The position numbers and the translations under genes are program-made. This document shows, one piece after another, positions 13,738-13,985 of a stretch of 41,249 nucleotides of DNA. Numbering within the stretch: position 1 is the first letter of the stretch; each line of letters opens with the position of its first letter. Origin of the DNA: Cryomorphaceae bacterium (lineage in GTDB: Bacteria > Bacteroidota > Bacteroidia > Flavobacteriales > Schleiferiaceae); assembly GCA_021298655.1 (NCBI GenBank), contig JAJTFK010000025.1, positions 1-41,249 of the forward strand, given 5' to 3'. The notes beneath the pieces were generated by a model. It saw only the letters and a list, made by a program, of their open reading frames with translations, was not told the DNA's origin and searched no databases.

Positions 13738-13985
13738 ATGGCCATTACGATTACCGACGAGTGCATTAACTGCGGAGCTTGCGAGCCCGAATGCCCGAAC
13801 AGCAGGAGCCGGTGAGCTTCGACTACTACTACATCGTGACCGACAAGTGCACCGAATGCGTGGGCTTTCATGAGACGCCGCAGTGCGCCGAGGTTTGCCC
13901 GGTAGATTGCTGCGTGCCCGACGAGGGCAACGTGGAAACGCGCGAGGAGCTCGAATCCAAGAAGTCCTTCCTGCACCTGGATTGA
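13738..13985 (+). pseudogene. Dicluster 4Fe-4S ferredoxin, broken by an internal out-of-frame deletion
   Basis: The first 25 codons read [20 protein letters not shown], a perfect start for the roughly 115-residue Flavobacteriales 4Fe-4S ferredoxin with its first CxxCxxCxxxCP cluster. They then run into a TGA at 13813. The other half continues in a different frame: [15 protein letters not shown], then CVGFHETPQCAEVCPVDCC, holding the second cluster and the normal C-terminus up to 13985. About 35 residues of linker expected between the halves are absent, and the missing length is not a multiple of three. As written, no complete ferredoxin is made. The frame of the second half overlaps the next gene's ATG. 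The location between acyl-CoA reductase and serC is the usual one, so this is the resident gene and not a stray copy. A sequencing or assembly error is possible. Confidence 0.8.

Follow-up and report, generated by a model that had tools for sequence, protein, structure and literature searches.

A YfhL-type ferredoxin gene in two frames on a Cryomorphaceae contig, most likely through an assembly error

Introduction

In dicluster ferredoxins, each 4Fe-4S cluster draws ligands from both cysteine motifs of the protein. The gene described here is, to judge from its sequence, an ordinary YfhL-type 2[4Fe-4S] ferredoxin gene (family NF033683) minus 103 bases in the assembly. A housekeeping 2[4Fe-4S] ferredoxin with which it can be compared is that of Pseudomonas aeruginosa, reported to be essential (PMC2984482). 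They are alike in being housekeeping ferredoxins of this class, but the Pseudomonas subgroup is described in that report as almost exclusive to Proteobacteria, so its essentiality is only suggestive for the gene studied here. The other relevant precedent is the report that assembly errors produce many apparent pseudogenes (PMC11017572). Our case resembles that account in that conserved genes, intact in the relatives, look broken in a single assembly, which is marked out by the excess; it differs in that frameshifts and internal stops in general are treated there, whereas we deal with holes of 35-130 bases, found by comparing assemblies.

The window is the stretch of DNA analyzed, 41,249 nucleotides long, and is itself a complete contig (C22); its genome, G000, has 1.60 Mb in 45 contigs and is given as 97% complete. 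The features discussed are collected in Table 1.

Table 1. Features of the window, with positions counted from its first base.
Feature	Position	Strand	Remarks
LuxC-like acyl-CoA reductase, divergent neighbor	12685..13686	-	PF05893, 41.9 bits
First half of ferredoxin gene	13738..13815	+	First CxxCxxCxxxCP motif, followed by four codons out of frame and TGA; matches NF033683 positions 1-22
Junction in ferredoxin gene	13801..13803	.	Net 103 bases short against seven same-genus relatives; near-blunt
Second half of ferredoxin gene	13803..13985	+	Second cysteine motif, other frame; matches NF033683 positions 29-77
Gene downstream of ferredoxin	13985..14731	+	Start overlaps ferredoxin stop; lies between ferredoxin and serC
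serC, phosphoserine transaminase	14756..15832	+	
serA-like phosphoglycerate dehydrogenase	15851..16795	+	
SAM hydroxide adenosyltransferase, second broken gene	22784..23538	+	130-base hole at 23271-23273; PF01887 on first part
Third, weaker broken gene, poorly conserved	38325..40111	-	Two frames here; about 52 bases missing near 38655

Results

The ferredoxin gene and its break

The first half of the gene is read in frame 1 from the ATG at 13738 to the TGA at 13813-13815, and the second half lies in a different frame that is open to the stop at 13983-13985. This bears out the earlier note on this DNA, which had described two recognizable halves in differing frames at 13738-13985 with about 35 residues missing and a loss of 1 mod 3 bases: on both sides of the junction the window is collinear with seven same-genus genomes, and it is a net 103 bases shorter at a single point, which is 1 mod 3 and corresponds to about 34 residues. 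The same note thought that a short CGAAC-like sequence at the junction could have allowed slippage. Slippage is not supported: the CCCGAA repeat is found at the left side of the junction only, in the relatives it does not recur where the missing segment ends on the right, and the join is close to blunt.

Compared with the YfhL family, the window ferredoxin has both cysteine motifs and the C-terminal part, but its halves are in two frames and the linker is gone. The motifs are 50-52 residues apart in 79/79 ferredoxin loci counted by script (an 80th was read by eye); in the window they do not stand at that distance in one frame, and about 34 residues of the spacing are gone. Separately, the two halves score 35.7 and 59.2 bits against NF033683, under its cut-off of 86 bits, whereas the intact protein of the sister genome G020 scores 97.5. 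The fragments differ from G020 by 19 synonymous and 3 replacement codon differences in 81 codons, with no sign in these differences of relaxed selection on the remnants, although a very recent event would look identical. One could suppose that the break is real and the gene functional, either through a -1 ribosomal frameshift yielding a shorter, linkerless ferredoxin or as two peptides started at 13738 and at the ATG at 13791, given that the frames overlap at about 13773-13812 and that this second ATG is in the second frame. However, by eye the overlap holds no X XXY YYZ heptamer, the arrangement is absent from all relatives compared, and the other broken genes described below would be left unexplained, all of which makes a functional split gene extremely improbable.

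Intact genes in relatives, and the search for a second copy

As the note had supposed, the gene is normally intact in Flavobacteriales: it is one open frame in 29/29 relatives translated and in all 80 loci taken, as the best of 545, from a second collection (79 by script and one by eye), two sets that overlap and partly hold the same records. Two checks suggested with that claim were also run. Comparison with close relatives places the missing bases in the same-genus genomes, and a search of the whole genome of the window for an intact 4Fe-4S ferredoxin found no second copy. Fer4 matches at other places are in long open frames of 386, 453 and 1010 aa; the match at C40:4094 is the second half of a broken sdhB, and that at C12:6124 is weak (13 bits). 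When 60 genomes were searched with the second half, own genome included, it was matched in the own genome and in 54 of the 59 others, where the open frame at the match has at least 100 residues in all 54, compared with 71 residues in the own genome. A repeat search of the five genomes that lacked a match, with the full G020 ferredoxin and E allowed up to 10, was empty in four and gave E 0.14 or worse in the fifth. One of the five, G047, is 99% complete in one contig, so real loss of the ferredoxin gene does occur in the order.

The neighborhood of the gene was compared in the best 80 of the 545 loci, with fetched flanks of up to 4 kb. An acyl-CoA reductase match is on the strand opposite to ferredoxin in 64/80 of them, and serC and serA are near the ferredoxin in 33/80 and 35/80, respectively. 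In the window, the ferredoxin stop overlaps the start of the next gene at 13983-13987 (TGATG), and for that gene we found no Pfam or NCBIfam match at 13994-14728. Beside the acyl-CoA reductase, at 12043-12703, there is a pair formed by an MntA-like nucleotidyltransferase and a HepT-like RNase, which is a probable type VII toxin-antitoxin module; its NCBIfam scores are under the cut-offs, and the Pfam HepT-like score is over its own. This region is a net 622 bases longer than in G020 and is also missing in G017, G019, G001, G004 and G006; most of it does align in G010. The minus strand at 40099-41249 carries an rRNA operon at the contig end, with a 5S and with a 23S that is truncated by that end.

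Other holes on the contig and in the assembly

The second broken gene of the contig has its 130-base hole relative to G020 and also to G017, G004 and G006, and its frame is broken; its fragments differ from G020 by 71 synonymous and 18 replacement codon differences in 248 codons. The third gene has an open frame of 638 aa in G020 and of 632 aa in G006; its identity to G020 is just 54-77%, and its 52-base hole is probable. At 39742, the same fast gene shows a difference of 81 bases, which is a multiple of three and is not counted as gene-breaking.

To extend the comparison beyond the contig, 430,101 bases of G000 were set against 734,868 of G020, of which 257,195 aligned at about 80% identity. 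The same type of lesion is found in unrelated genes of the assembly, with five clear gene-breaking holes and one weaker one, ranging from 35 to 130 bases. Outside the window there is a 35-base hole in a GlcD-like FAD oxidase gene (C5:618; 35 bases against each of five relatives), a 55-base hole in sdhB, the gene of a basic respiratory enzyme (C40:4028), and a 67-base hole in an ECF sigma factor gene (C40:9331). None of the six lengths (103, 130, 52, 35, 55 and 67) is a multiple of three, and the joins inspected are near-blunt with little shared sequence. The holes are unevenly placed: C22 has three in its 36 kb aligned, C40 two in 20 kb and C5 one in 10 kb, and none was found in 105 kb of C39 or 40 kb of C17. 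For SdhB, a search of the whole own genome returns the two broken pieces and one insignificant match only; the G020 protein matches NF005746 at 438.5 bits (cut-off 243).

In a forward screen, 7/297 G020 ORFs have a split counterpart in G000. Of these, four correspond to holes already counted (two in the window, the one in C5 and the one in sdhB), one is an antisense shadow of sdhB, C2_6850_9324 has its first 107 residues on the strand opposite to the oxidase gene, and C4_4233_4889 has low identity. Of 296 G000 ORFs in the reverse screen, one is split in G020, and it mirrors the 130-base hole; a looser version gives 3/310, of which two mirror the pair of window holes and the third, C39:27921-28307, has low identity. 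Another ORF split in G020, C39:74956-76212, looks antisense by composition. The sigma-factor hole and the one at 38655 came from the DNA comparison and inspection, outside the ORF screen; as two of the six holes were missed by it, the screens are not exhaustive, and the reverse one may miss some too. With that reservation, no gene-breaking hole was found in G020 by the reverse screen and at the places inspected.

Several other size differences against G020 were not counted as gene-breaking holes. C17:22813 and C39:26128 are spacers with repeats that are longer in G020; C40:7360 and C40:12170 are spacers or gene ends; C5:3932, 8154 and 8510-8609 are a spacer, a terminator and a repetitive stretch, respectively; C10:4490 and C17:11307 are gene ends; and C17:6486, C39:36389, 74862 and 110385 are several small gaps or diverged stretches. 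Also not counted is C35:4853, where G020 is longer by 2.4 kb. Among sites at which G020 is the shorter, spacers or diverged stretches account for C15:4837, C15:10261, C35:6495 and C40:8673; the difference at C39:88920, 24 bases and a multiple of three, is inside an open frame. Spacers at G020:C4 ~18741-18838 and G020:C1 ~64460-64566 have degenerate CTAGCAACTAG-like unit repeats and are much shorter in the genome of the window.

Discussion

The 103 bases absent from the assembled ferredoxin gene are most likely present in the organism, with a probability of about 0.86. Of the two outcomes that the earlier note had left side by side, a lineage that has lost the carrier or a consensus that has dropped about 100 bases, the second is favored and the first is not, because this assembly has other clean holes that break the frame of genes unrelated to the ferredoxin, one of them the sole sdhB found. 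Near-blunt holes of this kind in unrelated genes, a hit in the only sdhB found and fragments without decay are hard to reconcile with what would, to judge from its relatives, be a free-living, aerobic-type bacterium.

A real and recent frame-breaking deletion, leaving the ferredoxin as a pseudogene in the lineage or strain, would agree with halves that are perfectly recognizable and with a genome in which a second copy was not found; G047 likewise has no ferredoxin match, and a very recent event would leave the substitution pattern that we see. We nevertheless regard it as unlikely, since the same type of lesion recurs in unrelated genes, the only sdhB found among them, and is absent from the G020 screen. 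It is possible that a real ferredoxin deletion stands alongside artefacts elsewhere in the assembly. A broader biological reading starts from the two of six holes that fall at 4Fe-4S cysteine motifs, those of the ferredoxin and sdhB. On this view, a streamlined member of the Schleiferiaceae would have shed, very recently, the only YfhL-type ferredoxin and the only SdhB that it had; it would be abandoning some of its iron-sulfur electron transfer, perhaps in dependence on a partner. We give this very little weight, and take the position of the two holes as coincidence.

If the bases were dropped in assembly, scaffold gaps of underestimated size may have been joined without Ns, a cause to which we give about even odds. 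A 44-N gap in C30, with 46-48 own bases between the matches, faces 144-146 bases in five relatives; gap sizes can thus be underestimated by about 100 bases in this assembly, and such a gap could be rendered as a direct join. The second N run, 33 N in C12, is not short, with 1399 own bases against 1357-1363 in G010, G001 and G004. A more doubtful origin, which overlaps the main reading and adds nothing to it, is that the joins entered the reads or the assembly graph through amplification chimeras or through strain variants that were collapsed. Either could yield joins without Ns, and the missing segments have 62-71% GC in G020, 10-base flanks included. On the other hand, the joins have little shared sequence, and three of the missing segments showed no folding advantage over shuffled sequences (z 0.33, -0.25 and 1.59), giving no sign of hairpins.

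The assembly has small systematic holes despite its given completeness of 97%, and any absence or pseudogene called from it should be verified with reads or relatives. The ferredoxin break is most likely not a real feature and, as biology, little informative. Taken at face value, it and the sdhB hole would have this genome recorded as without a conserved electron carrier and complex II; the organism itself would carry the missing bases and make a normal dicluster electron carrier.
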